Below are positions 7,901-52,505 of a stretch of DNA of 64,000 nucleotides, in pieces. The notes below the pieces were generated by a model that worked only from the letters and a program-made list of their open reading frames with translations, was not told where the DNA came from and made no database searches. The first letter of the stretch is position 1. Each line of letters opens with the position of its first letter. Source of the stretch: Acidobacteriota bacterium (GTDB lineage: Bacteria > Acidobacteriota > Terriglobia > Bryobacterales > Bryobacteraceae); NCBI GenBank assembly GCA_017304135.1, contig JAFLBB010000014.1, positions 1 to 64,000 of the forward strand, given 5' to 3'. The position numbers and the translations under genes were made by a program.

Positions 7901-8641
7901 GTGCAGGGCGTTGGCGCCTGACTTGGTGGACATGGAGACGTTGATGCCGGTGGAGTGGCCGAAGGAGGCGTCGAAGTTGGAGGTTTCGATGCGGAACTCG
8001 TCGATGACGTCGGGGCTGGGCATGAACGACGTGCGCCGGTTGGTGCCGTTAGCCGAGGCGCCGTCCATGGACCATTCGTTGCCGCCGACGTTGCCCGGCA
8101 TATTGTAGGCCGAGCCGCCGCCCAACTGGCCCTGGACGAGGAACTGCGTGGTTCCGGGCACCTGGACGCCGGGTGAGAAGCGGGTGAGCATGCTGACGTT
8201 GTTGCCGAGCACGGGCAGGTCCATCACCTCGCGATGCGTGATGGCGCGGCCGGTGGAGACCGAGGAGGTTTCCAGCAGCGGGGCCTCGGCGTTGACGGTG
8301 ACCGATTCGGCGGTGCCGCCGACCTCGAGGGGCGCGTCAATTTGGAGCCGCTCACCGATGGCCAGCGTGATGCCGGAGCGCACGTAGCGCTTGAAGCCGC
8401 TCATCTCCACCGTCACCGAGTATTCGCCGGGCAACAGGAGGGGTGCTTCGTAATAGCCGCTGGAATTGGTGGTGAGGCGCGTCACCGTGTTGGTGCCGGT
8501 GTTGGTGACGACGACGCCGGCGCCGGCGACAACGGCTTGCTGGGCGTCGGTGACGGTGCCGGCAATGGTGCCGCGCGTGTCCTGGGCTGTCAGTAGAGTG
8601 GCGCTGAGCAGCAGCGCGAAGACCTCACGTTTAAAGATCAT
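4970..8641 (-). CDS. TonB-dependent receptor, Oar-like, with N-terminal carboxypeptidase-regulatory-like domain
   Basis: A 1223-residue outer-membrane receptor. A signal peptide (residues 1-19) is followed by a carboxypeptidase regulatory-like beta-sandwich (about 20-110: GTIAGTVTDAQQAVVAGA, YYEAPLLLPGEYSVTV), a plug domain with the NVGGNEWSMDGASANG block, and a long beta-barrel ending in phenylalanine (ARIQF), as required for barrel insertion. Such Oar-like proteins are abundant in Acidobacteriota and are thought to import carbohydrates or peptides. The start at 8641 leaves a G-rich ribosome site (GGGGGG) nine bases upstream and restores the signal peptide; the frame extends 11 codons further. 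The galactonate-dehydratase-like gene follows directly, pointing to a sugar-acid or oligosaccharide ligand. Confidence 0.93.
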   Translation of the reverse strand: MIFKREVFALLLSATLLTAQDTRGTIAGTVTDAQQAVVAGAGVVVTNTGTNTVTRLTTNSSGYYEAPLLLPGEYSVTVEMSGFKRYVRSGITLAIGERLQIDAPLEVGGTAESVTVNAEAPLLETSSVSTGRAITHREVMDLPVLGNNVSMLTRFSPGVQVPGTTQFLVQGQLGGGSAYNMPGNVGGNEWSMDGASANGTNRRTSFMPSPDVIDEFRIETSNFDASFGHSTGINVSMSTKSGANALHGSATYQYFNQRWNAVPFFVKKNRYSQISAANQAGNTALADQLANTPFVPPGHTNNYHGTISGPVYIPKLLDGRNKLFFFLGYSGLKNLQSARPSEINYTVPTNAMRNGDFSALLPIDAVRYQVYDPASTRRDPSRAGHWVRTPFAGNVLPRARMTNPIYSTYTRMMPVANNDPTDPRREPVNNYLATGMPNNVNYQSWNNRIDYQASEKHRFFFRWLKASFEEDAQGFTYESEPGLMDWDEIRPTLSGAFDWTYAANASTVLNASVDGTLFKNHNQRLGTRKYKPTDVGLPAYLDQKCGDDCLLPRVIWPGMTYWNGDMIVSVPLDQGHHGWQQSAKFNFSQVRGSHSLRAGVDLRQHYRTAVVNGGFTSGNFTFANNFVRKDEDGFTPAGTLGLTWATFALGMPTGMSIDTNDSYALMNPYYAGYVQDTWRATRKLTLTFGLRMEYEKGPTERFNRAIGYFDPNLELPIAAAAQAAYARNPLPELPASQFIVKGGTVYTGVNGTPRELWQSELMWLPRLSAAYQVSSKTVVRGGYGIYFDTLNVMNQAADQYGYSRATNTVLTTDFGENWLVGDPQNNISPLTNPFPVRANGTRFDAPLQNALGSMARAGQGFTYTRYDRQHPRVQRWRVGVQRELTSNILVEGSYWGQFADRIGLTRRLDALPEQYWASGNVRNNAVATEMNRQVPNPFLLSNFASLQSTNPVLYQHLSTLGAFTSATVAKNRLLRPFPHMNGLNDNSDPLGKARTHAFEFNFTKRFSRGFNLNASYTRMFQDNKTIMENEFESAPRIWWPSDSARPHRFTATAIVELPFGRGRQFFQTGILNHILGGWQGAVTYEFQNGPLLSWGNLIYKGDINSFEADATSSTKTLDQWFNTNVAFDKVAGNQFAAFHTRVFPRFFNGLRADGLSQWNGNLLREIKLTEAVRFQFRVDAINLQNRSQMSAPDINPVSTNFGRVLSQTSSLNRFYQLQARIQF

Positions 8642-8704
8642 GGCAAGCCCCCCTAGGGCTGAGATGGCCGACAAGGTATATCGAACGTGGCCCGCTCGCG
8701 CAAG

Positions 8705-38462: not shown

Positions 38463-40067
38463 CTACCCCCGCGGCATTGCCACGATCTTCAACGTCAACG
38501 CCACCTCTTCACGCTGGCGTTTCGCGTCCCAACCGAGCCGTTTGCCCATATCCTCGGCCAAACCTGCCAGCAGCCGCTCATCCCAGCGCTCCTCGTGCCC
38601 CAGGTAGGTCGACACGAAGAGGAAGTCCGGCATGCGCTGGACCATCTCGTGTTCGAGCGTCCAATCGAGCACGGCCGTCAGCGCCCTTTCATCCGACGCG
38701 CCTTCTGTCGGCGCGCGATCAATGATGGCCGGCGCCTGCACACCGAACAGCTTCGTCACCATGGCCACGTCGCTGCGATAGATGGCCGTCCGCGCCGCCG
38801 TCACGTCCACCTGCTCTTCCACCGCCGAGTAGGCTTCGGGTGTGTTCCCGCCCAGCGCAACCTCGCCCGTGCGGCACGTGCCCGCCAGTTCCGGCCAGGC
38901 CAGGTCCGCCGCCTCCGCGCTCATCACGCGATAGGTCGTATACTTGCCGCCCGTGATGCGCACCACGCCAGGCGGCTCCTCAAAGATCCTATGCTCGCGG
39001 CTCGTCTTCGTGGCCGATTGCTCGCCCGACTTCACCAGCGGCCGCAGCGAACTGTAGGCCGCGATCGGCTCAATCGTGCGCGAATGCGGGAATATCGCCG
39101 CCGCCACTTCGCGGATGTAGCGGACTTCCTCGGCCGAAATCTTCACCTCGTCGGCATTGCCCGCATGGTCGGCATCGGTCGTGCCCACCAGCGACCGCGT
39201 GTTGTTCGGCCCCCAGGGAATGACGAAAAAGATCCGGCCGTCAGTGTGAAAATGCGCAATCGCGTGGTTCGTAGATGACAGTTTCGGATAGATGAGGTGC
39301 GAGCCGCGCACCAGCCGCAGCTTGCCATCGTCATCCCAAGGTCCGCGCGCATTCACCAGCCGCCGCGCATGCACCACGAACTCCTCGCCGGTGAACTGCT
39401 CGCGCAGCTTGACTCGGAACGTTTCGCCAGCCAGCCGCCACTCCAGGGCTTCGGTGTAGTTCAGCGTCAGCGCCCCCATACGCGCCGAGTCGAAAATGTT
39501 TTCGAGCACCAGCCGCGCCGAGTGGACCTTGCAGTCGTAGTAAACGCCCGCCGAACTCAGCCCCTCCGTATTCAACCCCGGCTCCAGATCCTGAGCGTCT
39601 TCCTTGCTCAGGAAGCTCCGTTTGCCCACATTGTCGGCGCCTGACAGAAAGTCGTAAATCACCAGCCCCGTGCCGTAGAACAGCTTTGCGAAGGTGCTCG
39701 GAAAGGGAATCAGGAACGGAAGCGGGTCCACCAGGTGGGGCGCAATCCGCTTCAGCGCGCTGCGTTCGCGCAGCGCCTCTTTCACCAGCTTGAACTCGAA
39801 GTTCTTCAGATACCGCAACCCGCCGTGGAGCAGTTGCGAATTGCGGCTGCTCGTCCCGCTGGCAAAGTGCCGCTTCTCGACGAGCCCCAACTTCAGAGGC
39901 TTCTTGGCATCGGAGGCCCTCAGCGCGAGGTCGCGCAAAATGCCCGCTCCGTTAATGCCGCCGCCGAGAATCAACACATCGAGCGGATTCTGTTTCGTTG
40001 CTTTCTTGAGCCGCTCGAGATGTTCGCCCCGGCTGGCCCGCGTAAACACCGGCTTCGGCGCCGTCAT
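38463..40067 (-). CDS. glpD: FAD-dependent glycerol-3-phosphate dehydrogenase
   Basis: A 534-residue membrane-associated flavoenzyme that oxidises sn-glycerol-3-phosphate to dihydroxyacetone phosphate and passes electrons to the quinone pool. It has the dinucleotide fold LILGGGINGAGILRDLALR (residues 31-49), the GlpD signature SGTSSRNSQLLHGGLRYL, GPWDDD, GSHLIYPKLS, FVIPWG, GTTDADH and RITGGKYTTYR. Length is normal. Its ATG overlaps the TGA of the upstream acyltransferase gene (ATGA), which places it in a glycerolipid operon rather than a glycerol-catabolic one; no GlpK or GlpF is present. It could supply or drain glycerol-3-phosphate and DHAP for lipid assembly. Confidence 0.92.
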   Translation of the reverse strand: MTAPKPVFTRASRGEHLERLKKATKQNPLDVLILGGGINGAGILRDLALRASDAKKPLKLGLVEKRHFASGTSSRNSQLLHGGLRYLKNFEFKLVKEALRERSALKRIAPHLVDPLPFLIPFPSTFAKLFYGTGLVIYDFLSGADNVGKRSFLSKEDAQDLEPGLNTEGLSSAGVYYDCKVHSARLVLENIFDSARMGALTLNYTEALEWRLAGETFRVKLREQFTGEEFVVHARRLVNARGPWDDDGKLRLVRGSHLIYPKLSSTNHAIAHFHTDGRIFFVIPWGPNNTRSLVGTTDADHAGNADEVKISAEEVRYIREVAAAIFPHSRTIEPIAAYSSLRPLVKSGEQSATKTSREHRIFEEPPGVVRITGGKYTTYRVMSAEAADLAWPELAGTCRTGEVALGGNTPEAYSAVEEQVDVTAARTAIYRSDVAMVTKLFGVQAPAIIDRAPTEGASDERALTAVLDWTLEHEMVQRMPDFLFVSTYLGHEERWDERLLAGLAEDMGKRLGWDAKRQREEVALTLKIVAMPRG

Positions 40068-40810
40068 GCCGCCTCCCGCCTGGCTGGCTCTTCTTCGTCC
40101 AACTGCCGCATCAGCGCCTCGATCCGTTCGCGCAGCAGCGTCGTGAACTCCTCGCGCTGCTTCAATGTGTAGTTCGACGGATCGATTGGTTCGCCCAACA
40201 GAAACTCCACCGGACCACCCTTCACATGCACGCTTCCGATGGGCAGCACCTCGCGCGTGCCCTTCAGCGCAAACGGCACCACCGGCGCGCCGGACTTGAT
40301 TGCGATGTAGGCCACGCCTTCCTTGAACTCCTGCAGCCCGCCGCTGGCGCGCCGTCCCTCGGGAAAGAGCAGCACGCTCAGTCCGCGCTCCTGAATCCGC
40401 CTGGCCGCATCGGTGAGCACTTTCAAGCTCGATCGCGTGTCGTCCGGGTCGACGGCGAAATGCCCGCTGCGCCGCAGGTGTGTCCCCAGAAACGGCAGCT
40501 TCACGTATTTGATGTTCACCAGAAACAGAAACTGCCGCGGAATCGTCGCCAGCACAACGGGCGTGTCATAGAGGCTCAAATGGTTGCCGGCGAATACGAA
40601 GTGCTGCCCCGGCTTCACATGTTCAAGGCCGCGCACGCGCAGCTTGATCCCGGCGAACCAAAGCAGTTGCTTCGCCCAGTTGCGCGAGATCGCATGCTGC
40701 CGCCGCCCGTCAGGATCGAAAAGCGAAGTCAGCAGGGAGATGGTCCCCATGAAAATCGTCGAGCCGATGATGAGCGGCGCTTTCACCAGCACCGCGAAGA
40801 GAAAGCTCAA
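40064..40810 (-). CDS. 1-acyl-sn-glycerol-3-phosphate acyltransferase (PlsC family)
   Basis: A 248-residue inner-membrane acyltransferase that transfers an acyl chain to lysophosphatidic acid or a related acceptor. An N-terminal hydrophobic segment (residues 1-30) precedes the catalytic HX4D motif H77-LSLY-D82 and the LFPEGRR motif (E151). The start is a TTG at 40810 that overlaps the TGA of the upstream gene in TTGA, and no later start precedes the membrane segment. A longer in-frame extension upstream is a shadow of the neighbour. It is the nearer of two PlsC paralogues in this operon and is coupled to glpD. Confidence 0.88.
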   Translation of the reverse strand: MSFLFAVLVKAPLIIGSTIFMGTISLLTSLFDPDGRRQHAISRNWAKQLLWFAGIKLRVRGLEHVKPGQHFVFAGNHLSLYDTPVVLATIPRQFLFLVNIKYVKLPFLGTHLRRSGHFAVDPDDTRSSLKVLTDAARRIQERGLSVLLFPEGRRASGGLQEFKEGVAYIAIKSGAPVVPFALKGTREVLPIGSVHVKGGPVEFLLGEPIDPSNYTLKQREEFTTLLRERIEALMRQLDEEEPARREAA

Positions 40811-41334
40811 TTCACAGCCCCCGCGCCGCTGGAAGCCGCCCGGTGTTCGGCGTCCAACGCCAGGATCGCCCGGAAATAGACGCTGGCCAGGGCCGTGGAG
40901 AGCACCTGCAGGGCCGGCAACCGCTCCGGTTGACCAGGCATCTGCATCTGGAGTAACAACGGACGCTCCGGCGATTCCAACAGCCGTTCGGCGTCTTCGC
41001 CCAGCATGGGGCCCGCGGCATGTTCGCGCAGCGCATCCAACATGAGCGAATCGGACTCCTCGTTCACTCCGGTGAGCAGCACGCCCATGGAGAGCGTTTC
41101 GCCGCCGCCGAAAAACGCCGCGAACGCCGCCCCGCCCGAGGCCGCCGCCCATTGCATCTCGATGTCGGAGTTGTTCAAAAACGGCAGCCGTTCGCGAAAC
41201 TCGGCAGGCCGCTCAGCAAGAAAGTCGCCGAACAGCGTGCACACCGCCTCGCCTTGCTCGACGGTGGGCTGCAAGTCGTAACCGGCCACCTCCACCCGCT
41301 TCTCAGCAGGGTGAATGGTTCGGACATAGAACAT
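40807..41334 (-). CDS. Unknown protein between two acyltransferase genes, 175 aa
   Basis: I do not recognise this protein. It has no signal peptide or membrane span and looks like a compact mixed alpha/beta cytoplasmic protein: MFYVRTIHPAEKRVEVAGYDL at the start, an Ala/Gly/Phe-rich centre (AASGGAAFAAFFGGGE), then LSMGVLLTGVNEESDSLMLDAL. Its stop overlaps the next plsC start (TTGA) and it begins 21 bases after the first plsC, so it is made in fixed ratio with the two acyltransferases and may be an accessory factor. Function unknown. Confidence 0.7.
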   Translation of the reverse strand: MFYVRTIHPAEKRVEVAGYDLQPTVEQGEAVCTLFGDFLAERPAEFRERLPFLNNSDIEMQWAAASGGAAFAAFFGGGETLSMGVLLTGVNEESDSLMLDALREHAAGPMLGEDAERLLESPERPLLLQMQMPGQPERLPALQVLSTALASVYFRAILALDAEHRAASSGAGAVN

Positions 41335-41355
41335 TTCTTTAGGGTACCAACTGCC

Positions 41356-42111
41356 TCAAACGCCAACGCTCTCCGTCGCCGGCGCGACCACTTTCTGCCC
41401 GATCAGTTCGCCCACACGTTCTTCCATCTGGTGCGTGAGCGGTTTCAAATCGGCCAGCGTCAGGTCGATCGTGTAGATGGGGTCGCCGATCCTCATGCGC
41501 ACGTGCCCCGGCCGGATCACCCGGCCGTGATTGCCGAGGATCTTCCCCGCCCCGATCAGGCCAATGGGAATCACCGGCACGCCGGCCTTGATGGCGATAT
41601 AGGCCGCGCCGTCCTTGAAGGGCTCCAGGTCGCCATAGGTGCGCCCGCCCTCGGGAAACAGCAGGATCGACACATCGCGCTCCAGAATCACCCGCGCCGC
41701 GTCACTCATCGTGCGCAGCGATTCGCGGGCGTTGCTGTGGTTCACCACGAGGTGACCGGCGCGCTTCAGGTGGGTCCCCAGGAAGGGCACGCTGAACAGG
41801 CTCTTCTTGGCGAGAAACCGCACCTGCACATGGATCCACGGCAGCACCAGCGGGATGTCGTAAAAGCTGCGGTGATTGGCGATGAACACGAAGCTTCCGC
41901 CGGGGGGGATCTTCTCCAAGCCCTCCACGGTCACCCTGACGCCGGAGACGAACAGCACAGCCCGCGCCCACACCCGCGCCACCTCGTGCTGCCAGCGGCC
42001 GGTGGAGCTGAAAATGCTGACCATGAGCGACGCCGTTCCCCCAATCGCGGTTAACACAGCGACAACGGGAATCGTGAACAGCCAGGTTCGGAGGATGTCA
42101 ATCAACAACAT
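41356..42111 (-). CDS. 1-acyl-sn-glycerol-3-phosphate acyltransferase (PlsC family), first gene of operon
   Basis: A 251-residue acyltransferase with an N-terminal membrane segment (residues 8-35), HX4D motif H80-RSFY-D85 and LFPEGGR (E154). It shares length and layout with the second PlsC at 40064-40810 (both have VPFLGTHLKR-type and AYIAIK..VPVIP-type blocks), so they are paralogues, perhaps with different acyl or acceptor specificity. It opens the leftward operon plsC - unknown - plsC - glpD - frameshifted gene and diverges from the fatty-acyl-reductase operon with 123 bases between the start codons. Confidence 0.88.
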   Translation of the reverse strand: MLLIDILRTWLFTIPVVAVLTAIGGTASLMVSIFSSTGRWQHEVARVWARAVLFVSGVRVTVEGLEKIPPGGSFVFIANHRSFYDIPLVLPWIHVQVRFLAKKSLFSVPFLGTHLKRAGHLVVNHSNARESLRTMSDAARVILERDVSILLFPEGGRTYGDLEPFKDGAAYIAIKAGVPVIPIGLIGAGKILGNHGRVIRPGHVRMRIGDPIYTIDLTLADLKPLTHQMEERVGELIGQKVVAPATESVGV

Positions 42112-42141
42112 AGTGGCGAGCGAATGAGTCAGCTACGAACA

Positions 42142-42191
42142 GGCGGCGAACATCGCTAAACGCCTTGCCTTGACAGCCTATGTTCGCAGCC
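42142..42191. promoter_or_regulatory. Inverted repeat, candidate operator between the two lipid operons
   Basis: GGCGGCGAACAT (42142-42153) and ATGTTCGCAGCC (42180-42191) are complementary at eleven of twelve positions, with 26 bases between. The left arm lies upstream of the rightward -35 box and the right arm lies between -35 and -10, a position suited to a repressor. CGAACA also occurs once more just upstream (near 42136). Confidence 0.5.
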
Positions 42192-42199
42192 GCTAGCCT
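42170..42199 (+). promoter_or_regulatory. Promoter of the rightward lipid operon
   Basis: A perfect TTGACA (42170-42175) is followed after 18 bases by TAGCCT (42194-42199). Predicted transcript start near 42206, about 29 bases before the GTG at 42235. The inverted repeat at 42142-42191 overlaps it. Confidence 0.55.
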
Positions 42200-42234
42200 A
42201 TTGTAGCGCACGTCTTTTTCTGCGTTTCGCGGGC

Positions 42235-43794
42235 GTGCGCGTGGATCTTTTGCCATCCCCGGTGCAGCCCTCCTTGATCGACGCCACACAAGCTTTTCGC
42301 GACACCGAGATCTTCCTGACCGGAGCCAACGGCTTCGTGGGCAAGGTCGTTCTCGGCCTGCTGGTCGACCGCTTTCCCGACTTCAAGCACCTTCACATCC
42401 TCATGCGCGGCAAGGCGGGCAACCCGCCCGAAGAGCGCTTCCAGAAGGATGTTCTCGGTTCGCCCTCGCTCAAGCCCATCGTCGAGCGCCGGGGCAAGGC
42501 GGCATTCCTCGACAAGATCACGCTGCATCTGGGCGACGTCTCGCAACCTCAGTTCGGCCTCACCGACGAAACGCTGGCCTCGCTCCGCGGCCGCGTCGGC
42601 ATCCTCATCAACTGCGCCGGGCTCGTCGAGTTCTTCCCGCCCGTCGATGAGAGCTTCCGCTCCAACGTGGACGGCGCGGAATGCTCGGTCGTCGTCGCCG
42701 AAAAGCTGGCCGCGAAGCTGGTCCACATCTCCACCTGCTTCGTGTGCGGGGAAAGCGACGGCCTGGTGGAGGAATCCGAACCCATCCTCGGCTACTACCC
42801 GCGCCGCAAGGGCCCGCAGGACCGCAGCTTCCGCTTCGACGAGGAGATCAAGTTCATCCGCGAACAGGTGGCCGCCATCCGCGACCGCGCCGCCCGCAGC
42901 CCCCGCCGCATCGCCCCGAAGGAGATTGCCCAGCAGTTGATCGACCTTGGCACGCAGCGCGCCGCGCAATGGGGCTGGGTGAACATCTACACCTATTCGA
43001 AGAGCCTCGGCGAACAGATCATCGCCTCGCAGCCCAATCTCGAATGGGCCATCGTCCGCCCGGCCATTGTCGAAGCCGCGCTCGAGTTTCCCTTCCCCGG
43101 CTGGGTGGAGGGCGGACGCACCGCCGCACCGCTCGTGATGATGGCCATGGCCGGGTTGCGCCACTGGCCGCTGCGGCCGGACGCCCCCATGGAGGTTGTG
43201 CCGGTGGACCAGGTCGGCACTTCGATTCTCACAGCCGCCGCCGCGCTGCACCAGGGCGTGAAGAACAAGGTCTACCAGATCGGCACGGCCGACTCCAATC
43301 CCATTCCCCTCGGCAGCATCGTCGACTGGATGCACGAGGAATACCGCCGCGAGAAGAAGAAGTGGCTCCCCACGGGCGGCGTGAAAATCGTTTCGGCCGC
43401 CACCGCCAAGCGCCGCGGCGAACGTCTCATCGCCCGCCTCGCCGGGCTCCAATACCTGGCCACGGGCATGCGCAAAGTGGCCCAGAAATCCGGGCTCCCC
43501 GGCCGCCGCGCCCTGGGCGGCCTCGCCACACAGCTCCGCATGTTGGGCCTCCAGGTGAACATCCGCGAACAGACGCTGGCCCTCTACCAGCCCTTCATGC
43601 TCGACAACCGCTTCATCTTCGAAGCCGAGAACATCCGCGCCGCCCACGCCTCGCTCACCGAAGCCGACCGCGCCAAGCTCCCCTGGTCGCCGGAGCAGAT
43701 CGACTGGCGCCGCTACTGGATCGACAATGAAGTGGCAGGCATCCAGAAATGGGTGGCCGCCGAGTTCATGAAGGGCAAGTCCTTTAAGATATAG
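42235..43794 (+). CDS. Fatty acyl-CoA/ACP reductase-like protein (NAD-binding_4 plus FAR C-terminal domain)
   Basis: A 519-residue extended-SDR protein of the fatty-acyl-reductase (male-sterility) family, expected to reduce an activated acyl chain to aldehyde or alcohol. Seen: TGANGFVG nucleotide motif (29-36), catalytic Y252-TYS-K256, the substrate-binding region to about residue 400, and a C-terminal sterile/FAR_C-like domain ending DWRRYWIDNEVAGIQKW. Start is GTG 42235 or the in-frame GTG 42241; no ribosome site is clear. It heads a six-gene operon and lies 12 bases before the ACP/ligase fusion, which could supply its acyl substrate. A polyketide-type thioester reductase is the alternative; the FAR_C-like tail argues against it. 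Confidence 0.82.
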   Translation: MRVDLLPSPVQPSLIDATQAFRDTEIFLTGANGFVGKVVLGLLVDRFPDFKHLHILMRGKAGNPPEERFQKDVLGSPSLKPIVERRGKAAFLDKITLHLGDVSQPQFGLTDETLASLRGRVGILINCAGLVEFFPPVDESFRSNVDGAECSVVVAEKLAAKLVHISTCFVCGESDGLVEESEPILGYYPRRKGPQDRSFRFDEEIKFIREQVAAIRDRAARSPRRIAPKEIAQQLIDLGTQRAAQWGWVNIYTYSKSLGEQIIASQPNLEWAIVRPAIVEAALEFPFPGWVEGGRTAAPLVMMAMAGLRHWPLRPDAPMEVVPVDQVGTSILTAAAALHQGVKNKVYQIGTADSNPIPLGSIVDWMHEEYRREKKKWLPTGGVKIVSAATAKRRGERLIARLAGLQYLATGMRKVAQKSGLPGRRALGGLATQLRMLGLQVNIREQTLALYQPFMLDNRFIFEAENIRAAHASLTEADRAKLPWSPEQIDWRRYWIDNEVAGIQKWVAAEFMKGKSFKI

Positions 43795-43806
43795 GTTCCA
43801 CTCCCG

Positions 43807-46368
43807 ATGTCCGCCACCGCGCCACAAGTCGAACAGCTGACCATCGAACAGCAGGTCATGGAGATCGTCCGCGAGCTGTTGCTCCAACAGGGCAAGGAGC
43901 GCGCGGCGGCCAATCTGAAGCCCAGCTCGTCGTTTGAGCGCGACCTCGGCCTGGCCTCGCTTGACCTGGTTGAGCTGATGGTCCGGTGCGAGCAGAAGCT
44001 CGAACTCGAACTGCCCGACGAGATTGCCGAGCAGGCCGACACGCCGGCAGGCTGGGCCAAGGCGATCCAACAGGGCACGCAGGAGAAGTCAGCCGAATCG
44101 GTGTACCGCATCGTGCCGCCCTCGGGCGTCATCGCCCCGGAGCCGGTAGCCGCCGAAACCCTCGTCGACATCCTGCGCTGGCACGTCGAACAGACGCCGG
44201 GTAAAACGCACATCCACCTGCTCGATGCCGGCGCCGGACGCGGCATCACCTGCTCGCAGATTCTCGACGGCGCGGAAGCCGTGGCCCGCGGCCTGCTCGC
44301 CCAGGGCATCGAACGCGGCGCGCCAGTGGCCATCCTGCTCCCCAATGGCGAGGAGTTCCTCCACGCCTTTTTCGGCATCGTCCTGGCCGGGGCCATCCCC
44401 CTGCCTCTTTTCCCGCCCGCCGACGTCACGCGCCTCACCGAATACATGGAGCGCCAGGCCAACCTGTTGCGCAAGACGGGCGCGCGCTTCCTGATCGCCT
44501 TTCAACAGGTGCGCTCGCTGGCCCGCATGCTCCGCGTGAGCGTGCCCGGCATCACCGGCGTGGCCCAGGTGGATACTCTGCGCGAACTCGGCAGCCGCAC
44601 CCAGCGCAAGCTCCCGGCGCCGCACGAAACCGCCATTCTCCAGCTCACCTCCGGCACCACGGGCGACGCCAAGGCCATCCCGCTCACGCATGCCAACGTG
44701 CTCGCCGACATCCGCGGCATCGGCCGCCGCGTCGGCGTCAACGGTCACGACGCGGTGGTCAGCTGGCTCCCGCTTTCGAGCGACCTCGGGCTGGTCGGCT
44801 GCTGGCTCTTTGCCATGTACTATGGCATCCCGCTCACGCTGCTCTCGCCCAAGGAATTCTTCGAGCGCCCCGAGACCTGGTTCTGGGCCATTCACGATTC
44901 GCGCGGCACCCTTTCGGCCGCCCCCAACTTCTCCTACGAGATGTGCGCCCGCCGCCTGCCGATGTCCGCCGTCGAGGGCGTCGACCTCTCTTGCTGGCGC
45001 ATGGCCGTCAACGCCGGCGAAAACGTGATGGGTGAGACCATCGAACACTTCACGCGCCGCTTCGCCGCCATCGGTTTCCGCCCTGAAGCGATGGCCCCTG
45101 GCTATGGACTGGCCGAAGCAGGCGTTGCCCTCGCCCTCAGCGACCCCGGCGCCGGGCCGTGGTGCGACGCAGAGGGTTTCTACTCCGTCGGCCGCCCGCT
45201 GGAAGGCGCCGAAGTGCGCATCTACAACGGCCACGTGCAATTTCGCGCCGCCTCGCAAAGCCCCTCGGTGCGCGGCGAAGACGGCTGGACCGACTCGGGC
45301 GACCTCGGCTACCTCACCGCGGAGGGCTGCCTCGTCGTCACCGGCCGCTCCAAGGACGTCATCGTCCGTAAGGGCCGCACCATCTCGCCGCAACAGGTGG
45401 AAGCCGCCGCGCTGCAAGCCACCGGCGTGCGCGCCAGCTCAGCCGCGGCCATCGGCGTGAAGGACACGTCGACGGGCAGCGAACGCCTGGTCGTCATCGT
45501 CGAATCGCTGGCCGAAAACTCATCTGACCAGCGCCGCGTCGGCGAAGGCGTGCGCCGCTCAGTGGAAGCCGCCCTCGGCGAGCCGCCCGACGAAGTATTC
45601 GTGATCCCTCCCGGCACGCTGCCTAAGACCGCCAACGGCAAGCTCCGCCGGGGCGAAGCCATTGAACATTACCGCCAGCGCTCACTCGGACGCGAAGGCC
45701 GCGCCCCCGCTGTCGAAATGGCCGCTCTCTGGCAGCGCAACTTCGGTGCGCTCGCCGCCGCCGGCATCAAGCGCTGGCTCCGCACCGCCACGCAGCGCAT
45801 CCGCTTTGGCGCCGCCCGCGCCACGGCCCGCTTCGGCGGCTGGCTCATCTCCACCCTCAACAAGCCCAACTGGACCGCCTCGTTCGCCCGCACCGCGCTC
45901 TCACTGGCCGGACGCCGCGCCATGCTCGAAGGCACGCTGCCCGCCGCCGGTTGTCTCGTCGTGGCCAACCGCTGCGGCCACCCCGATCCGGTCGCCCTGG
46001 CCGCCTGCCTGCCCCGCCGCGTCACGCTGGCCGGCGCCGAAGCGCTCCATGGCGTTCTCGGAGCATCGGAGTCGTTACTCCACAATTCGGTCGCCTCCAC
46101 TCACGCCGAAATGGTCGCCGCCCTGCGCCGCGGCGATGTCCTCGTGCTCTTCCCCGACGCACCCATCGGTGTGGCCGCTGAACGCTGCCGCTTCCGCCTG
46201 CCCGCCCTGCGCGCGGCCCAGGAAGCCGGCGTCCCCGTGGTTCCTCTTGCCATGGATGAGTTCCGCCTCCGCACCACCGCCCGTGTCGGAACTCCAATCG
46301 ACCCCGGCCCGAGCGTAGTCGAATTGCGCAACCGCATCCGCGAAGCCATCTCCGGCTTGTATGCTTAG
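43807..46368 (+). CDS. ACP - AMP-dependent acyl ligase - PlsC-like fusion protein
   Basis: An 853-residue three-part protein. Residues 1-90 are an acyl-carrier domain with the phosphopantetheine-type serine S51 in DLGLASLDLVEL. Residues about 110-640 are an AMP-forming ligase: LQLTSGTTGDAKAIPLTHAN, PGYGLAEAG, DSGDLGYL, KGRTISPQQVE and the catalytic lysine in PKTANGKLRR. Residues about 690-853 resemble PlsC, but the HX4D site reads N721-RCGHP-D727, with Arg where the catalytic His should be, and LFPD replaces LFPEG, so acyl transfer by this part is doubtful. The ligase could load its own ACP for the reductase upstream. The overall domain content recalls the multidomain ether-lipid enzyme ElbD of Myxococcus; that link is inference. 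Confidence 0.85.
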   Translation: MSATAPQVEQLTIEQQVMEIVRELLLQQGKERAAANLKPSSSFERDLGLASLDLVELMVRCEQKLELELPDEIAEQADTPAGWAKAIQQGTQEKSAESVYRIVPPSGVIAPEPVAAETLVDILRWHVEQTPGKTHIHLLDAGAGRGITCSQILDGAEAVARGLLAQGIERGAPVAILLPNGEEFLHAFFGIVLAGAIPLPLFPPADVTRLTEYMERQANLLRKTGARFLIAFQQVRSLARMLRVSVPGITGVAQVDTLRELGSRTQRKLPAPHETAILQLTSGTTGDAKAIPLTHANVLADIRGIGRRVGVNGHDAVVSWLPLSSDLGLVGCWLFAMYYGIPLTLLSPKEFFERPETWFWAIHDSRGTLSAAPNFSYEMCARRLPMSAVEGVDLSCWRMAVNAGENVMGETIEHFTRRFAAIGFRPEAMAPGYGLAEAGVALALSDPGAGPWCDAEGFYSVGRPLEGAEVRIYNGHVQFRAASQSPSVRGEDGWTDSGDLGYLTAEGCLVVTGRSKDVIVRKGRTISPQQVEAAALQATGVRASSAAAIGVKDTSTGSERLVVIVESLAENSSDQRRVGEGVRRSVEAALGEPPDEVFVIPPGTLPKTANGKLRRGEAIEHYRQRSLGREGRAPAVEMAALWQRNFGALAAAGIKRWLRTATQRIRFGAARATARFGGWLISTLNKPNWTASFARTALSLAGRRAMLEGTLPAAGCLVVANRCGHPDPVALAACLPRRVTLAGAEALHGVLGASESLLHNSVASTHAEMVAALRRGDVLVLFPDAPIGVAAERCRFRLPALRAAQEAGVPVVPLAMDEFRLRTTARVGTPIDPGPSVVELRNRIREAISGLYA

Positions 46369-46373
46369 CTGCT

Positions 46374-46985
46374 ATGCCTGAATTCGACGCCGCCCTGTTG
46401 CTGCGGCTCGCCGCCTGCTACTTCATCGGCTCCATCCCCTTCGCCGTCCTCGCCATGATGGGCACCGGCATCGACATCCTCAAGGAAGGCTCCGGCAACC
46501 CGGGCTTCAACAACGTCCTCCGCTTCTCCAAGTGGCGCTCCATCATTTGTCTGATCGGCGACCTCGGCAAAGGACTCTTCGCCATCATCCTCGTCACACG
46601 CCTCTGGCCCGCCACCTCCGCCCCGCCCACCAACACGCTGCTCTGGATCTACGGCCTCGCCGCCATCCTCGGCCACTGCTTCTCGCCCTGGCTCAAGTTC
46701 AACGGCGGCAAGGGCATCGCCACGTCAACGGGCGTAATGCTCTACGTCTACCCCTGGTATGTGCCGCCGATGGTGCTCGTCTACGTCTTCCTGCGCTGGC
46801 TGGGCAAAAAGCGCGGCTGGCTGGAAGCCGGTACACGCGCCTCGCTCACCGGCTACGCCCTCTTCGTGCTGATCCTGTTCATCCGCGAAGACCTCGTCAG
46901 CGCCCTATTCGGTCTCGGCTTCTTCCTCTTCGTCGCCTGGCGGCACAAGAAGAACTTCGAGAACATCCTGGCGGCGCGCCCCTGA
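46374..46985 (+). CDS. plsY: Glycerol-3-phosphate acyltransferase PlsY
   Basis: A 203-residue polytopic membrane enzyme that transfers acyl groups from acyl-phosphate to glycerol-3-phosphate, the first step of phospholipid synthesis. The three family motifs are present: YFIGSIPFA (motif 1), GSGNPGFNN with GDLGKGLFAI (motif 2) and GHCFSPWLKFNGGKGIATSTG (motif 3). Length is normal. It begins five bases after the fusion gene; a TATGCT eight bases before its ATG may give an internal leaderless promoter. The stop overlaps the next start in TGATG. PlsX, its usual acyl-phosphate supplier, is not in the window. Confidence 0.93.
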   Translation: MPEFDAALLLRLAACYFIGSIPFAVLAMMGTGIDILKEGSGNPGFNNVLRFSKWRSIICLIGDLGKGLFAIILVTRLWPATSAPPTNTLLWIYGLAAILGHCFSPWLKFNGGKGIATSTGVMLYVYPWYVPPMVLVYVFLRWLGKKRGWLEAGTRASLTGYALFVLILFIREDLVSALFGLGFFLFVAWRHKKNFENILAARP

Positions 46986-47647
46986 TGGCTGACAAGCTCG
47001 CCTTCTACGATCTCGACGGCACGCTCGTTTCGAGCAACGTCGTCTCGCAATACCTCTGGTTCGCCCGCAACCATCCCCACGCCAATAAGACGTGGCGGCT
47101 TGCCCGCGCCCTGCTCCGCGCCCCGCGCTGGCTCGCCCTTGAGCTGCGTTCCCGCCGCCGCTTCAACGAGGTCTTCTTCCTCGAATACGCCGGGCTCAGC
47201 CGCGACTGGATGGCCGCCAACGCCGCGCGCATGAACGAAGCCATCCTGCGCCCGGCCACCTTTCCCGGCGCCCGTGCGCTTGTGCAGCGCGACCGCGCCG
47301 AGGGCTTCCGCACCATCCTGCTGACAGGCTCGCTCGACTTCGCCATCCAACCCCTGCTCGACGACCTCGGCTTCGACGAGGCCGTCGCCAATCGCCTCGA
47401 ATTCCGCAACGGCATCGCCACCGGCGCGCTCATCGAACCCATCCTCGCCGGTCCGGAAAAGGTCGACGCGATTCGCGCGCTCTGCCTGCGCGACGACGCC
47501 GACCCGCGCGAGTGCCGCGCCTATTCCGATAGCATGTCCGATGTGCCCATGCTGGAAGCCGTCGGCCACCCCTATGCCACCAATCCGGTGAAGAAACTGC
47601 GCGCGCTGGCCGAGGCGCGCCACTGGCCCATTCTCGATCTGAAATGA
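46985..47647 (+). CDS. HAD-IB family phosphatase (SerB/CicA-like)
   Basis: A 220-residue haloacid-dehalogenase-fold phosphatase. It has motif I FYDLDGTLVSSN (nucleophile Asp near residue 8), motif II LLTGS, and motif III/IV YSDSMSDVPMLEAVG. The HAD-IB group includes phosphoserine phosphatase-like proteins and members fused to or next to PlsC acyltransferases, so dephosphorylation of a lipid intermediate (for example a phosphatidate or lyso form) is plausible from context. ATG 46985 shares one base with the plsY stop (TGATG) and its own stop overlaps the epimerase start (ATGA). Confidence 0.85.
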   Translation: MADKLAFYDLDGTLVSSNVVSQYLWFARNHPHANKTWRLARALLRAPRWLALELRSRRRFNEVFFLEYAGLSRDWMAANAARMNEAILRPATFPGARALVQRDRAEGFRTILLTGSLDFAIQPLLDDLGFDEAVANRLEFRNGIATGALIEPILAGPEKVDAIRALCLRDDADPRECRAYSDSMSDVPMLEAVGHPYATNPVKKLRALAEARHWPILDLK

Positions 47648-48630
47648 AGCCCATCCTCGTCACAGGCTCCACCGGCTTCCTCGGCAAACACCTCGTCGAA
47701 CAGCTCCGCGCCCGCCAAATCGGACCACTTCGTCTTTTATGCCGCGGCCAGTCGGGCTACGACAACCAGCCTGATCTCGAAATCACCCGCGGCGACGTCA
47801 CCGACCCCGACGCCGTTGAACAGGCCGTGCGCGGCACACGCGCCGTCTTCCACTTGGCCGGCCTCGTTTCACGCGACCCGCGCGACCGCGCCCGGCTCTT
47901 TGACGTCCACGTGAACGGCACGCGCTACGTCTGCGAAGCCGCGCTCCGACACGGCGTCGAGCGCCTCGTCGTCGTATCTTCCTCCGGCACCATCGCCGTC
48001 TCGAAGAAGCCCGTCATTCACACCGAGGCCTCCGGCTTCCAGCACGAAGTGACGCGCAACTGGGGCTACTACGCCTCCAAGATCGCCGCCGAGGAACTCG
48101 TCCTCGACCTCTGCCGCGGCCGCGCCCTCCCCGCCGTTCTGCTCAACCCCGCCTTGCTGCTCGGTCCGGGTGATGAACGCTGCTCTTCCACCGGCGACAT
48201 CGTCCATCTTTTTGAAGGCCAGATCCTCACCTACCCCACCGGCGGCATGAGCTTCGTGGACGCCCGCGACGCTGCCGCCGGCGCCATCGCCGCGCTTGAC
48301 CGCGGCCGCACCGGCGAATGCTACCTCCTCGGCGGCGCCAACTGGACCTTCCAACGCATCATCCAGGAAACCGCCCGCATCGGCGGCATCAAGCCGCCCC
48401 TCATGTCGAGCCCCACCGCGCTGGCCCGCCTGAGCGCGCCCCTCCTCCGCGCCGTCATGCCCCTCATCGGGCGCAAGTTCACCCTCGACGACGAGACCAT
48501 CCAGCTCAGCGGCCACTTCTGGTATTGCGACTCCTCCAAAGCCGAACGCGAACTCGGCTTTCATGCGCGCGATCCGCTGGAGACGTTGCGCGACACCGTC
48601 AACGACCTGCGCACGCGAGGCGCGATATGA
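47644..48630 (+). CDS. NAD-dependent epimerase/dehydratase (extended SDR, HpnA-like)
   Basis: A 328-residue extended SDR with VTGSTGFLG (residues 6-14), FHLAGLVSRDPRD, the catalytic WGYYASKIAAEE (Tyr-x3-Lys) and a C-terminal substrate region with VDARDAAAGAIAAL. It resembles hopanoid-associated HpnA-type sugar epimerases and 3-beta-hydroxysteroid-dehydrogenase-like proteins. In this operon it may modify a lipid head group or act on an acyl or alkyl intermediate; sequence alone cannot decide. Coupled at both ends by ATGA overlaps. Confidence 0.82.
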   Translation: MKPILVTGSTGFLGKHLVEQLRARQIGPLRLLCRGQSGYDNQPDLEITRGDVTDPDAVEQAVRGTRAVFHLAGLVSRDPRDRARLFDVHVNGTRYVCEAALRHGVERLVVVSSSGTIAVSKKPVIHTEASGFQHEVTRNWGYYASKIAAEELVLDLCRGRALPAVLLNPALLLGPGDERCSSTGDIVHLFEGQILTYPTGGMSFVDARDAAAGAIAALDRGRTGECYLLGGANWTFQRIIQETARIGGIKPPLMSSPTALARLSAPLLRAVMPLIGRKFTLDDETIQLSGHFWYCDSSKAERELGFHARDPLETLRDTVNDLRTRGAI

Positions 48631-49562
48631 GCACCAACGCCCCGCGCGGCCCCGCCCCCCGTACCGCCGCCGTCATCAATCCCCGCGCCGCCAACGGCCG
48701 CGCCGCCGCCCACTGGCCGCGCATTGTCGAACAGATCGGTCTGGTCGAAGCGTTATTTACGCAGCATCCCCACCACGCCGCGGAGCTCGCCACTCAATTG
48801 CTCGACGAGGGCTTCGAGCGCATCCTCGCCGTCGGCGGCGACGGGACCATCAGCGAAACGATGAACGGCTTCTTCCGCGATGGCCACCCCATCAACCCCA
48901 ATGCGGAGTTCGGCATCCTCCCCATGGGCACCGGCGGCGACTTCCAGCGCACCCTCGCCATTCCCTCCATCGACGCGGCCGTCGGCGTCATCCTTGCGGG
49001 CAAGTCGCGCACGATCGACGCCGCCCACATCACCTATGAGGCGCACACCGGCGGCCAACTGTCGCGCTATTTCCTCAACCTCACCAGTTTCGGCATGGGC
49101 GGCGAGGTGGCCATCCGTGCCAAGAACTCGCTCAGCGCCTACAGCGGCAAGCTGGCGTTCATGTACGCCACCGTCGAGGTCTTCTTCCGCTACCACGCCA
49201 AGACGGTGGAGTTGTCACTCGACGGCGGCGCGCCCACCACGCACAAAATCCTCAACATCGCCATCGGCAACGGCCGCTATCACGGCGGCGGCATGCACGT
49301 CTGCCCCAAGGCGCTGCTCGACGACGGCACGCTGGAGGTCACCATCATCGAAGACCTCGGCATGTTCACCCTGGCCAAGGATCTTCCGGTGCTCTACTCC
49401 GAAAACATCTACAAACACCCCAGGGTCCACCACCACCGCGCCGCCCACATCCGCGCCACATCTCGCGAGAAGGTCTCCATCGAGGTCGATGGGGAGGCGG
49501 TGGGGACGTTGCCCATTGAGGTCCGCCTGCTGCCACAGGCGATCAGGATCCTGACGCCATAA
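48627..49562 (+). CDS. Diacylglycerol kinase-family lipid kinase
   Basis: A 311-residue DAGK_cat/YegS-like kinase that would phosphorylate a diacylglycerol, alkylglycerol or similar lipid using ATP. Features are AAVINPRAANG (residues 14-24), the nucleotide loop ILAVGGDGTISETMNG, ILPMGTGGDFQRTL, SFGMGGEV and the C-terminal VEVDGE-type motif (IEVDGEAVGTLP). ATG 48627 overlaps the upstream TGA. It is the last gene of the rightward lipid operon and converges on the TRIC-like gene 39 bases away. Together with the HAD phosphatase it could set a lipid phosphorylation cycle. Confidence 0.88.
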   Translation: MSTNAPRGPAPRTAAVINPRAANGRAAAHWPRIVEQIGLVEALFTQHPHHAAELATQLLDEGFERILAVGGDGTISETMNGFFRDGHPINPNAEFGILPMGTGGDFQRTLAIPSIDAAVGVILAGKSRTIDAAHITYEAHTGGQLSRYFLNLTSFGMGGEVAIRAKNSLSAYSGKLAFMYATVEVFFRYHAKTVELSLDGGAPTTHKILNIAIGNGRYHGGGMHVCPKALLDDGTLEVTIIEDLGMFTLAKDLPVLYSENIYKHPRVHHHRAAHIRATSREKVSIEVDGEAVGTLPIEVRLLPQAIRILTP

Positions 49563-49601: not shown

Positions 49602-50261
49602 TCAATCAGTCCGCGCCCGATCCTCTTCCTGTGTTGCCACAGGCAGCCTCCAGCCCCGGCGGATCGCCAACAGGCGAAGAGCGAAACAAAGCAGTGCGCC
49701 GCCAATCGCCGGCCCGAGTGGAGGAAGGCCGTACACATCGCCGGCCACCACCACACCCGCGCCCGCCAGCGCCGCCACGGCATAGAACTCCGCACGCAAC
49801 ACCAGCGGGATTTCGTTCGCCAGTACATCTCGTACGATGCCGCCCCCAATCCCTGTCAACATGCCCAGCAGCATGGCCGGGACCGGCTCCATGCCGAGGG
49901 CGAGTGACTTTTGAGAGCCCGACACGGCAAACAGCGAGAGCCCCGCGGCATCGAAGACCAGAATCGGCGTGCGCAGCCGGTCCACCTTGGGGTGAAAGAG
50001 AAACGTGGTGAGCCCGGCCACAATCGAGATCGCCAGGTACGACCAATCGCGGATCGCCTGTGGCGGGACGGCCCCGATCAGAAGATCGCGAAGGATCCCC
50101 CCGGAAGTGGCCGCCGCGAAGGAGAGAACCAACACGCCAAATAGATCCAGCCTGGCGCGCACACCCGTCGCCGCGCCGCTCAGGGCAAAGACAAACGTCC
50201 CGATCGCATCGAGCGTTTGGACCAGCGACTTGAGTGTCTCTTCGATCGCAATCGGGTTCAT
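49602..50261 (-). CDS. Trimeric intracellular cation channel (TRIC)/UPF0126 family membrane protein
   Basis: A 219-residue inner-membrane protein with two UPF0126 repeats, each ending in a Gly-Gly-x-x-Arg-Asp motif: GGILRDLLIGAVPP near residue 54 and GGIVRDVLANEIP near residue 140. Seven membrane spans are likely. Prokaryotic TRIC homologues conduct potassium, and related YicG/YadS proteins have been proposed as glycine transporters, so the solute is uncertain. Its ATG overlaps the stop of the adenosyltransferase gene (ATGA), so it is cotranscribed with it. Confidence 0.88.
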   Translation of the reverse strand: MNPIAIEETLKSLVQTLDAIGTFVFALSGAATGVRARLDLFGVLVLSFAAATSGGILRDLLIGAVPPQAIRDWSYLAISIVAGLTTFLFHPKVDRLRTPILVFDAAGLSLFAVSGSQKSLALGMEPVPAMLLGMLTGIGGGIVRDVLANEIPLVLRAEFYAVAALAGAGVVVAGDVYGLPPLGPAIGGALLCFALRLLAIRRGWRLPVATQEEDRARTD

Positions 50262-50890
50262 GTGGAACTAGCGGTGCGTCCCCCCGCCGCGGCGTTGGGC
50301 TCCCACAGCACTTCCTTCTCCCCCAACGCCTGCGCCGCCCAGCGGCTTTGCACGAACAGCGCATCGCTCAACCGGTTCAGATAGCGGACGGCCTCGGTGG
50401 GGACCTCCTCCTGGCGCGCCAGCGCCACGGCCACGCGCTCAGCGCGACGGCAGACCGTGCGCGCCAGATGCAGTTCGGCGTTCAACCGGCAGCCGCCAGG
50501 CAGGACAAACGAGCGCAGCGCCGGCAGCGTCTCGTTCATCTCGTCCATCTCACGCTCCAGTTGTTCAATGTCGGCGTCGGTGACGCGCGGCTGCTTGGGG
50601 TGCACATCCTCGGGGAGTGTGGCCAGAATCGAGCCCAGATTGAACAGCTCATGCTGCACGCGCTTCAGGATGGCCGCCAGCCGGGCCGTCTCCGTGCGCT
50701 CGCCCGCCGAAACACAGGCCATCCCCACCGCCGCGTTCAATTCATCCACGGTGCCGTAGCTTTCAATGCGCAGGGCGTCTTTGGGCACGGTCTGCCCGCC
50801 GACCAGAGTCGTCTCGCCGCCATCGCCGCGCTTGGTGTAGATCCGGTTCAGCGCGATGCGCGGTTCGTTGAACGTGCTTTCGTTGCTCAC
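50258..50890 (-). CDS. Cob(I)alamin adenosyltransferase, PduO type
   Basis: A 210-residue enzyme that adenosylates cob(I)alamin to coenzyme B12. PduO/MMAB motifs: RIYTKRGDGGETTLVGG (ATP site), YGTVDELNAAVG, FVLPGG, ARTVCRRAER and RYLNRLSDALFV. It starts at GTG 50890 and diverges from the B12-dependent acyl-CoA mutase with 49 bases between, so it most likely loads that mutase with its cofactor, as in propionate-metabolising bacteria. A CAGAAT box six bases before the GTG would give a leaderless transcript. Confidence 0.92.
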   Translation of the reverse strand: MSNESTFNEPRIALNRIYTKRGDGGETTLVGGQTVPKDALRIESYGTVDELNAAVGMACVSAGERTETARLAAILKRVQHELFNLGSILATLPEDVHPKQPRVTDADIEQLEREMDEMNETLPALRSFVLPGGCRLNAELHLARTVCRRAERVAVALARQEEVPTEAVRYLNRLSDALFVQSRWAAQALGEKEVLWEPNAAAGGRTASST

Positions 50891-50924
50891 AATTTCATTC
50901 TGATGCCGCCCGTCCGCGCGGCGC

Positions 50925-50930
50925 TACACT
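50925..50930 (+). promoter_or_regulatory. -10 box for the mutase gene, leaderless placement
   Basis: TACACT ends nine bases before ATG 50940, and no ribosome-binding sequence lies between. Confidence 0.5.
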
Positions 50931-50939
50931 ATTTCTGCC

Positions 50940-52505
50940 ATGCTCCACCGCACCCTAAGCGGCGTTCCGCTGGAGAACCACTACTCACACGACGCCAGCC
51001 GCGCCGCCGAACCACCTCCCGGAGAGTTCCCCTACACGCGCGGCATCCACCCCACGATGTACCGCGGCAAGCTCTGGACGATGCGCCAGTTCTCCGGCTT
51101 CGCCACCCCCGAGGAAACCAACCAGCGCTACCGCTACCTCCTCGCGCAAGGCCAAACCGGGCTCAGCGTCGCCTTCGACCTTCCCACGCTCATGGGCTAC
51201 GACGCCGGCCACCCCCTCGCGCTTGGCGAAGTGGGCAAATGCGGCGTCAGCATCTCATCGCTCGCCGACATGGAAACGCTCTTTGACGGCATTCCCCTCG
51301 GCCAGGTGAGCGTTTCGATGACCATCAACTCGCCCGCCGCCATGATCTGGGCCATGTACCTGGTGGTCGCCGAAAAGCAGGGCGTTGCGTGGACCGAACT
51401 CAACGGCACGCTGCAGAACGACATCCTGAAGGAGTACATCGCCGAGAAAGAGTTCATCTACCCGCCGCGGCCGTCGATGCGGCTGGTCACCGACACCATC
51501 GAGTTCGCCACCCGCCACACGCCGCGCTACAATCCCATCTCCATCTCCGGCTACCACATCCGCGAAGCCGGCTCCACCGCCGCCCAGGAACTCGCCTTCA
51601 CCCTGCGCGACGGCATCGAGTACGCCGATTGGGCCATCGAGCGCGGGCTCGGGATCGACGAGTTCGCCCCCCGCCTCAGCTTCTTTTTCAACTCGCATTC
51701 GGACTTCTTCGAGGAGATCGCCAAGTTCCGCGCCGCCCGCCGCATTTGGGCCAGGCTCATGCGTGAACGCTACGGCGCGCGGGACGAGCGCAGCCTTCGC
51801 CTCCGTTTCCACGCCCAAACCGCCGGCTGCTCGCTCACCTGGCAGCAGCCTTACAACAACCTGATCCGCACCACGACGCAGGCGCTGGCCGCCGTGCTGG
51901 GCGGCTGCCAGTCGCTGCACACCAACTCGCTCGATGAAGCCTACGCCCTGCCCAGCGAACAGGCCGTTACGCTGGCGCTGCGCACGCAGCAGATCATGGC
52001 CCACGAGACCGGCGTGGCCGAGGTGGCCGACCCTCTGGGCGGCAGCTATCTTGTCGAGTCGCTCACCGACCAGTTGGAAGCCCAAGCCCTTGATTACATT
52101 CGCCGAATTGATTCCATGGGCGGCGTGATCCCGGCCATTGAGCGGGGCTTTCCACAATCGGAGATCGCCCAGGCCAGTTACCGCTACCAGCAGGAGGTGG
52201 AGCGCGGCGAGCGCCTCGTGGTCGGTGTCAACGCCTTCACCCAGAGCGGCGACGCTCCGATCGACCTGCTCCACATCGACCAGGCCGCCGAAGCCGCCCA
52301 GGTGGCCAAGCTACGACAATTAATTACAAAACGAAGCCAAACCGCCGTCGACCGCGCGCTGGCCGCCCTGGACCACGCCGCCGCCCACAACCTGAACATG
52401 ATGCCCGCCCTGCTCGATTGCGTTCGCGCCTACACCACCCTGGGAGAGATGTGCGACACCCTGCGCCAGCGCTTCGGCACCTGGGTGGAGCAGCCCGTCC
52501 TCTAA
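50940..52505 (+). CDS. B12-dependent acyl-CoA mutase, large (catalytic) subunit
   Basis: A 521-residue TIM-barrel subunit of the methylmalonyl-CoA mutase family without the B12-binding domain, which must come from a separate small subunit not in the window. Family blocks: [45 protein letters not shown] with the catalytic histidine, [11 protein letters not shown] and [11 protein letters not shown]. At the positions that in my alignment match Tyr89 and Arg207 of Propionibacterium methylmalonyl-CoA mutase it has F51 and E169. Phe is as in isobutyryl-CoA mutase, and a Glu would not pair with a carboxylate substrate, so the substrate is probably not methylmalonyl-CoA. Divergent from the adenosyltransferase gene. 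Confidence 0.88.

Follow-up and report, generated by a model that had tools for sequence, protein, structure and literature searches.

A 64,000-nucleotide stretch of DNA from a Bryobacteraceae member of the Acidobacteriota (positions 1 to 64,000 of contig JAFLBB010000014.1, assembly GCA_017304135.1), here called the window, belongs to the 6.49-Mb genome G000 and contains a set of lipid-related genes at window positions 38463 to 49562. Ten genes are organized into two divergent operons (Table 1). The plus-strand operon encodes a fatty acyl reductase (FAR), a fusion of an acyl carrier protein (ACP), an AMP ligase and a PlsC-like domain, PlsY, a HAD-IB phosphatase, an epimerase, and a lipid kinase, in this order. 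The minus-strand operon is composed of plsC1, a gene for a 175-aa protein, plsC2, and glpD. Adjacent genes abut or overlap by a few bases in both operons, and 123 bp separate the operons. The original prediction, which was made from the letters of the DNA, described two coupled divergent operons for reduced, possibly ether-linked glycerolipids, and all ten proteins it named were recovered as open genes with matches to the stated families. Its starting position of 40064 needs correction, since this excludes glpD (38463 to 40067) although GlpD was listed. In addition, a partner gene that looks essential to the set lies outside the window.

A check of synteny across Bryobacterales had been proposed. 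The order FAR-ACP/ligase-PlsY-HAD-epimerase-kinase was found again in other genera of the order, so that the arrangement in the window is not a matter of chance. The distribution of the divergent part, glpD-plsC2-plsC1, was narrower: it was complete in two genera, and plsC1 alone was present in three more. The gene plsC1 was divergent from the FAR gene in several genera, and the position of glpD was identical in L039, L040, L109, and L120. The closest named relatives are the Bryobacterales metagenome genomes L039 and L040, with FAR proteins 91 to 92% identical to that of the window. The start codon of plsC2 is a TTG at position 40810, which overlaps the stop codon of the gene for the 175-aa protein; a longer open reading frame of plsC2 reaching position 41152 was rejected as spurious. 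A 49% identical homologue of the 175-aa protein occupies the equivalent slot in L120. A scan for sigma-70 promoters did not reveal a sigma-70-like site between positions 42112 and 42234.

Table 1. Features of the divergent gene cluster, with positions in the window
Feature	Position	Strand	Evidence
GlpD-like glycerol-3-phosphate dehydrogenase (supply of dihydroxyacetone phosphate, DHAP)	38463..40067	-	DAO domain E 3e-41; GlpD model 289 bits, below cut-off
plsC2, lysophosphatidate acyltransferase-like	40064..40810	-	PF01553 E 3.5e-22; intact NHLSLYD motif
175-aa protein, function unassigned	40807..41334	-	no Pfam or NCBIfam match
plsC1, lysophosphatidate acyltransferase-like	41356..42111	-	PF01553 E 9e-28; intact NHRSFYD motif
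Intergenic region between operons, 123 bp, presumed promoter region	42112..42234	.	sequence
FAR, alcohol-type fatty acyl reductase, corresponding to the N-terminal part of ElbD	42235..43794	+	PF07993 + PF03015
ACP - fatty acyl-AMP ligase - degenerate PlsC-like domain	43807..46368	+	domain matches
PlsY-like acyl-phosphate:glycerol-3-phosphate acyltransferase	46374..46985	+	PF02660 E 3e-36
HAD-IB phosphatase, ElbB position equivalent	46982..47647	+	TIGR01490 above cut-off
NAD-dependent epimerase/reductase (HpnA-like), ElbE position equivalent	47644..48630	+	PF01370 E 2e-32; TIGR03466 216 bits, below cut-off
YegS/DGK-type lipid kinase	48621..49562	+	TIGR00147 above cut-off; GGDGT motif

By its sequence, the FAR of the window belongs to the alcohol-type fatty acyl reductases and is full-length. 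It contains an NAD_binding_4 domain (E 7e-44) with the active-site motif YTYSK and a C-terminal Sterile domain that scored below its own cut-off. The best match in the PDB was the fatty acyl-CoA reductase 7eoz over residues 26 to 507 (E 7e-32), whereas reductase domains of non-ribosomal peptide synthetases (NRPS) and polyketide synthases (PKS) matched only in part (1e-6 to 1e-7), and the thioester-reductase model TIGR01746 reached 87 of 213 bits. The Sterile domain, the full-length match to 7eoz, and the weak TIGR01746 score spoke against a thioester reductase of the PKS/NRPS type, a grouping that had been named as the result that would speak against an ether-lipid pathway. In a quick tree built with 93 acidobacterial FAR domains, which has long branches, the split-type FARs clustered with those of 30 fused proteins of the ElbD-like kind (families f24, f25, and f80; SH-aLRT 95), and three other FAR types stood apart. 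A contig search with the FAR protein alone matched exclusively Acidobacteriota.

Among the other FAR types is one of about 780 to 830 aa (L139:8477-10942 and the FAR region of L140, L141, L257-L260, L263, and L264), which occurs in several acidobacterial families without AGPS (alkyl-DHAP synthase) or strong matches to the LarA-type protein described below. In L139, a HAD domain (PF12710) is fused 5' of this FAR, followed by a 555-aa protein without a Pfam match and an epimerase. Two 1,161-aa FAR-AMP-ligase-ACP proteins with the ACP at the end and no acyltransferase (L142:9019-12504 and L143:7431-10916) look like stand-alone carboxylate-to-alcohol enzymes.

The ACP of the fusion protein keeps its Ser residue, and the ligase part had its closest PDB chains among fatty acyl-AMP ligases and loading ligases of PKS. 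The predicted PlsC-like domain is present, but its acyltransferase motif reads NRCGHPD where NHxxxxD is expected, with the catalytic His residue gone. The NR also stands in 24 of the 28 relatives in the alignment, which indicates that this domain is probably not catalytic, and acylation would then have to come from PlsC1, PlsC2, or PlsY. The fused ElbD-like proteins of the phylum follow the order FAR-ligase-ACP-acyltransferase with an intact NHxxHLD motif and an acyl-CoA-ligase-like ligase. The separate FAR, the ACP in front of the ligase, the degenerate acyltransferase, and the different ligase type mark the window cluster as a split and rearranged version of elb and not as a plain member. 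In a plasmid search, the FAR part was not found in ElbD-like matches. AMP-ligase proteins on plasmids (H1 from Ilyobacter polytropus NC_014633; H3/H4 from Fusobacterium) were 26 to 30% identical to a fused ElbD-like protein, with matches from the ligase into the acyltransferase part and no FAR part.

The elb operon of Myxococcus xanthus is the closest characterized system for comparison. As Lorenzen et al. 2014 are reviewed in PMC9131029, elbB encodes a HAD protein, elbC a protein of unknown function, elbD a FAR-acyl-CoA synthetase-ACP-acyltransferase protein, and elbE an epimerase; according to this review, elbD is required for most of the alkyl-ether lipid and the AGPS gene MXAN_1676 has a minor part. 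The window set shares with elb the HAD protein, the FAR, the acyl ligase, the ACP, the acyltransferase-like domain, and the NAD epimerase. It differs in that the FAR is separate instead of being fused in ElbD, the ACP precedes the ligase instead of following it, the ligase looks more like a fatty acyl-AMP ligase than an acyl-CoA ligase, and the fused acyltransferase is degenerate. Moreover, PlsY, the lipid kinase, two PlsC proteins, and GlpD are added, and the gene in the ElbC position is unlinked. The main route in M. xanthus is independent of AGPS, and the same is proposed for the window set. The relation to ElbD drawn in the original prediction was thus of the right kind, but the genes form a split and rearranged elb set and not a pathway new from scratch.

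Fused clusters exist within the phylum as well. In the family f24 and its neighbours, HAD, a LarA-type protein, a fused FAR-ligase-ACP-acyltransferase protein, and an epimerase are encoded in the order of elbB-C-D-E. The fused clusters of f24, f25, and f80, which probably correspond to the elb clusters described in the literature for subdivision 4, share this set with the genome of the window and possess FAR domains that group with the window FAR; unlike the window, they have one protein of about 1,460 to 1,510 aa, an intact NHxxHLD acyltransferase, and a GFDSL ACP. The window HAD protein is 40 to 47% identical to the HAD proteins adjoining fused ElbD-type genes, and the window epimerase 39 to 45% identical to the homologues 3' of such genes.

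The gene in the ElbC position leads to the candidate for the ether-forming step. Many relatives contain an extra gene for a product of about 530 to 580 aa, either between HAD and epimerase or between HAD and FAR/ElbD. This product is a LarA-type, nickel-pincer-nucleotide (NPN) protein (PF09861) of the LarAH14/15/16 family NF052592, here called LarAH. The linked copy in L120 reached 789 bits with NF052592 (cut-off 740). In G000, the slot of this gene in the cluster is closed, with HAD and epimerase overlapping, and LarAH is encoded alone and unlinked at G000:C297:8556-10112. The divergent subtype to which the window genome's LarAH belongs also occurs in G404, where a 59% identical member is found in linkage with an ElbD-like cluster, which ties this subtype to the same role. 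A gene for a 418-aa membrane protein adjoins the unlinked LarAH gene (G000:C297:10116-11372, L170). No LarAH was found in the plasmids or viral contigs searched.

LarAH possesses the features of the LarA superfamily, namely, the Lar_N domain, the conserved Asp-Asp, the first His, the GG-x-K, and the nickel-ligand His. The residues H130, K205, and H221 (L133 numbering) were nearly invariant in 44 homologues including the LarAH of the window genome. Read from an alignment to LarA 2yjg, they correspond to the first catalytic His, the NPN-binding Lys, and the Ni-ligand His, which are kept in both LarAH subtypes. Unlike a two-base LarA racemase, LarAH lacks a counterpart of the second catalytic His (H174 in LarA): no conserved His was present in that stretch of the alignment of the 44 homologues. 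Groups 14 and 15 of the LarA superfamily have been published without the second catalytic His (PMC12611868), and such LarA homologues are unable to racemise by the two-base route, but may perform another hydride-mediated reaction (PMC7583248, PMC12611868). LarC (PF01969) was present in 221 of the 237 genomes of the family, including G000; this shows that the cofactor can be made, and LarC was discarded as a test of NPN use because it does not discriminate. Selenocysteine in LarAH was also rejected, since the in-frame TGA codons were at natural ends outside the aligned core.

The distribution of LarAH follows that of FAR. Among the 237 Bryobacteraceae genomes, FAR was present in 18, LarAH in 18, and both in 17 (Fisher 9e-24, not corrected for relatedness), which corresponds to LarAH in 17 of 18 genomes with FAR versus 1 of 219 others, and this single genome is 73% complete. 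Co-occurrence was found although LarAH is unlinked in G000 and several other genomes. In the family f3, all eight tested ACP-ligase genomes carried FAR and LarAH, mostly not adjoining the ACP-ligase gene. Fourteen genomes with other FAR types contained neither AGPS nor a strong LarAH match (one weak, split match in G631). Conserved synteny and co-occurrence support the ether-lipid direction of the original prediction.

A replacement event suggests a connection between LarAH and ether synthesis. No AGPS match at E 1e-40 was present in G000, which extends the original observation that no alkyl-DHAP synthase is seen in the window to the whole genome. In the relative L046 (genome G650), an AGPS (PDB 4bby, E 4e-166) and an SDR protein are encoded between plsY and the kinase gene. 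To the left of AGPS, an 18-residue HAD remnant (MSAGIAVFDFEGTLVSSN, 5493-5546) has been left, and to the right of the SDR gene, the C-terminal end of the epimerase survives as a remnant interrupted by a stop (8469-8675). LarAH was not found in G650. The flanking remnants together with the missing LarAH indicate that AGPS-SDR replaced HAD-LarAH-epimerase. On the evidence of this gene arrangement, HAD-LarAH-epimerase is exchangeable for AGPS-SDR inside an otherwise conserved FAR/ligase/PlsY/kinase cluster. A related situation exists in G630, where HAD abuts FAR and the LarAH slot is empty, compared to HAD-LarAH-FAR in the relatives G351, G443, and G387. An SDR and an AGPS, the latter sharing 68% identity with the L046 protein, are located elsewhere in G630, LarAH is absent from this genome listed as 100% complete, and no epimerase or kinase gene was found on the HAD-FAR contig.

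In 80 elb-type genomes, 60 contained only LarAH, 10 only AGPS, 7 both, and 3 neither (Fisher 2.5e-6). AGPS was counted at matches of at least 46% identity, and two f80 genomes with 29 to 31% matches were counted as LarAH only. Both proteins were present in five f24 genomes, G497, and G568; the genomes with neither were G116, G420 (82% complete), and G521 (72% complete). In the group with fused proteins of about 1,450 aa, HAD adjoins the fused gene in all three LarAH-only genomes. For the eight AGPS-only genomes, the neighbourhoods that were read contained no HAD, and in those read around AGPS an SDR gene adjoins it.

Taken together, the cluster is interpreted as a split and rearranged elb module that makes alkyl-ether glycerolipids without AGPS, with the LarA-type enzyme supplying or enabling the ether-forming step; the probability of this interpretation is estimated to be roughly 0.58. 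The original prediction expected this step to be new or encoded elsewhere, and the likely enzyme is indeed encoded outside the window, as a protein of a known superfamily. Evaluation of this interpretation needs to consider several observations that weigh against it. The LarAH of the window genome reached 494 bits with NF052592, below the cut-off of 740, and judged by its sequence is a divergent subtype, with NF052592 still being the best family. The assignment of LarAH to ElbC is derived from gene order in Acidobacteriota. Five f24 genomes hold both LarAH and AGPS, and G116 possesses FAR but neither of the two. The mutual exclusivity of LarAH and AGPS was not significant when relatedness was allowed for (median p 0.25); the FAR tree provided about 6 independent LarAH pairs, with AGPS opposite in 3.6 and the same in 0.3 on average. 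LarA enzymes are, to our knowledge, known solely for 2-hydroxy acids. Pontiella, a genus bearing ElbD, had no ether lipids in culture (PMC11868695).

The host ethers could instead come from ester reduction of the Ger/PlsA type encoded elsewhere, with the cluster delivering only precursors and LarAH being responsible for a side step such as hydroxyacid processing. A Ger/PlsA route has been proposed for Solibacter usitatus, an organism reported without ElbD (PMC10087280) and said to be in the same subdivision 3 (PMC13274423). Reduction of an existing ester, however, does not require a fatty alcohol, which would make a dedicated FAR pointless, and the AGPS-SDR pair inserted into the cluster in L046 depends on fatty alcohol, so that this route is rather unlikely as an explanation of the cluster. 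Equally, a FAR alone yields alcohols, and homologues of ElbD without detectable ether lipids exist (PMC11868695), which would suit a cluster making another reduced lipid, for instance, wax esters, fatty alcohols, or alkyl- or hydroxyacid-modified lipids, with the alcohol being used for ester formation. This is unlikely because the set of HAD, epimerase, LarAH, and FAR/ligase/ACP matches elb, where deletion of elbD leads to loss of the ether lipid, because in L046 part of the set has given way to AGPS, which is specific to the synthesis of ethers, and because neither AGPS nor a strong LarAH match was present in the phylum's other genomes with a FAR. PlsY, PlsC, HAD, kinase, and GlpD are general glycerolipid enzymes and might, together with the ligase, recycle fatty acids and glycerolipids in a salvage or remodelling operon, with FAR removing surplus acyl chains. 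A housekeeping set for recycling should not be patchy, present in 18 of 237 genomes, and move as a unit with LarAH, which makes salvage very improbable.

In an AGPS-independent elb module, the AMP ligase would charge the fused ACP with a fatty acid, and FAR would reduce the acyl thioester to the fatty alcohol or the aldehyde. GlpD and PlsY may provide the glycerol backbone, PlsC1 and PlsC2 may acylate sn-2, and the lipid kinase may phosphorylate or rephosphorylate the product. The path from ligase to ACP to FAR and the action of PlsC at sn-2 are assigned because of the functions of the respective families. The presence of HAD and the kinase hints at dephosphorylated intermediates in part of the route. 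HAD, the epimerase-type reductase, and the unlinked LarAH would do the step done elsewhere by AGPS and its reductase, bringing the alkyl chain onto C1 and leaving the hydroxyl group at C2. AGPS exchanges the acyl group of acyl-DHAP for a fatty alcohol, and the reductase subsequently reduces C2 (PMC9131029). The AGPS pathway, peroxisomal or that of MXAN_1676-1674 in M. xanthus, is similar in the use of a fatty alcohol from FAR and in the proposed alkyl-glycerolipid endpoint, but it differs by the AGPS that G000 does not have. We infer both the lipid product and a direct action of LarAH in ether formation; if the LarAH module does the job of AGPS, the pathway still yields 1-alkyl-glycerol(-phosphate).

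Two chemically sensible variants of the LarAH reaction can be envisioned. LarAH may move the C2 hydride onto NPN, allow exchange of the C1 acyl for the alkyl group on the ketone as in AGPS, and return the hydride. Alternatively, a hemiacetal of the fatty aldehyde may be reductively etherified with the C2 hydride, and the ketone may be reduced subsequently by the ElbE-type enzyme. It is a tentative and still somewhat doubtful proposal that the ether bond in the alkyl-glycerolipids of bacteria is made by an NPN-dependent LarA-type enzyme with one catalytic His, which would borrow the glycerol C2 hydride and act as an AGPS-independent ether synthase.

Just past the cluster, genes for a cobalamin adenosyltransferase and a methylmalonyl-CoA mutase adjoin each other in a divergent orientation (window positions 50258-52505).

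Earlier papers have described acidobacterial ElbD-like clusters and a possible connection to branched glycerol dialkyl glycerol tetraethers (brGDGT) (PMC9426513, PMC10087280, PMC11868695), and the open-access papers searched contained nothing that connects LarA enzymes to ether lipids. Four observations appear to be new: the split architecture, the probably inactive acyltransferase domain, the association with LarAH, and the scar of the AGPS replacement. These observations bear on the synthesis of ether lipids without AGPS in aerobic bacteria, including Myxococcus with its requirement for elbD, and Acidobacteriota are the prime suspects for the brGDGT tetraethers, soil lipids that serve as palaeothermometers. 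Searches with the full-length ElbD would score split clusters as absent or partial; the separate FAR, the ACP-ligase protein, and LarAH may be used as profile queries for ether-lipid producers instead. The comparison offers a specific and testable enzyme for the missing step and a candidate pathway for an uncharacterised subgroup of LarA proteins. If true, a LarA-type ether synthase would explain ElbC of the elb operon, and this would be the first role of the NPN cofactor beyond the isomerisation of hydroxyacids.

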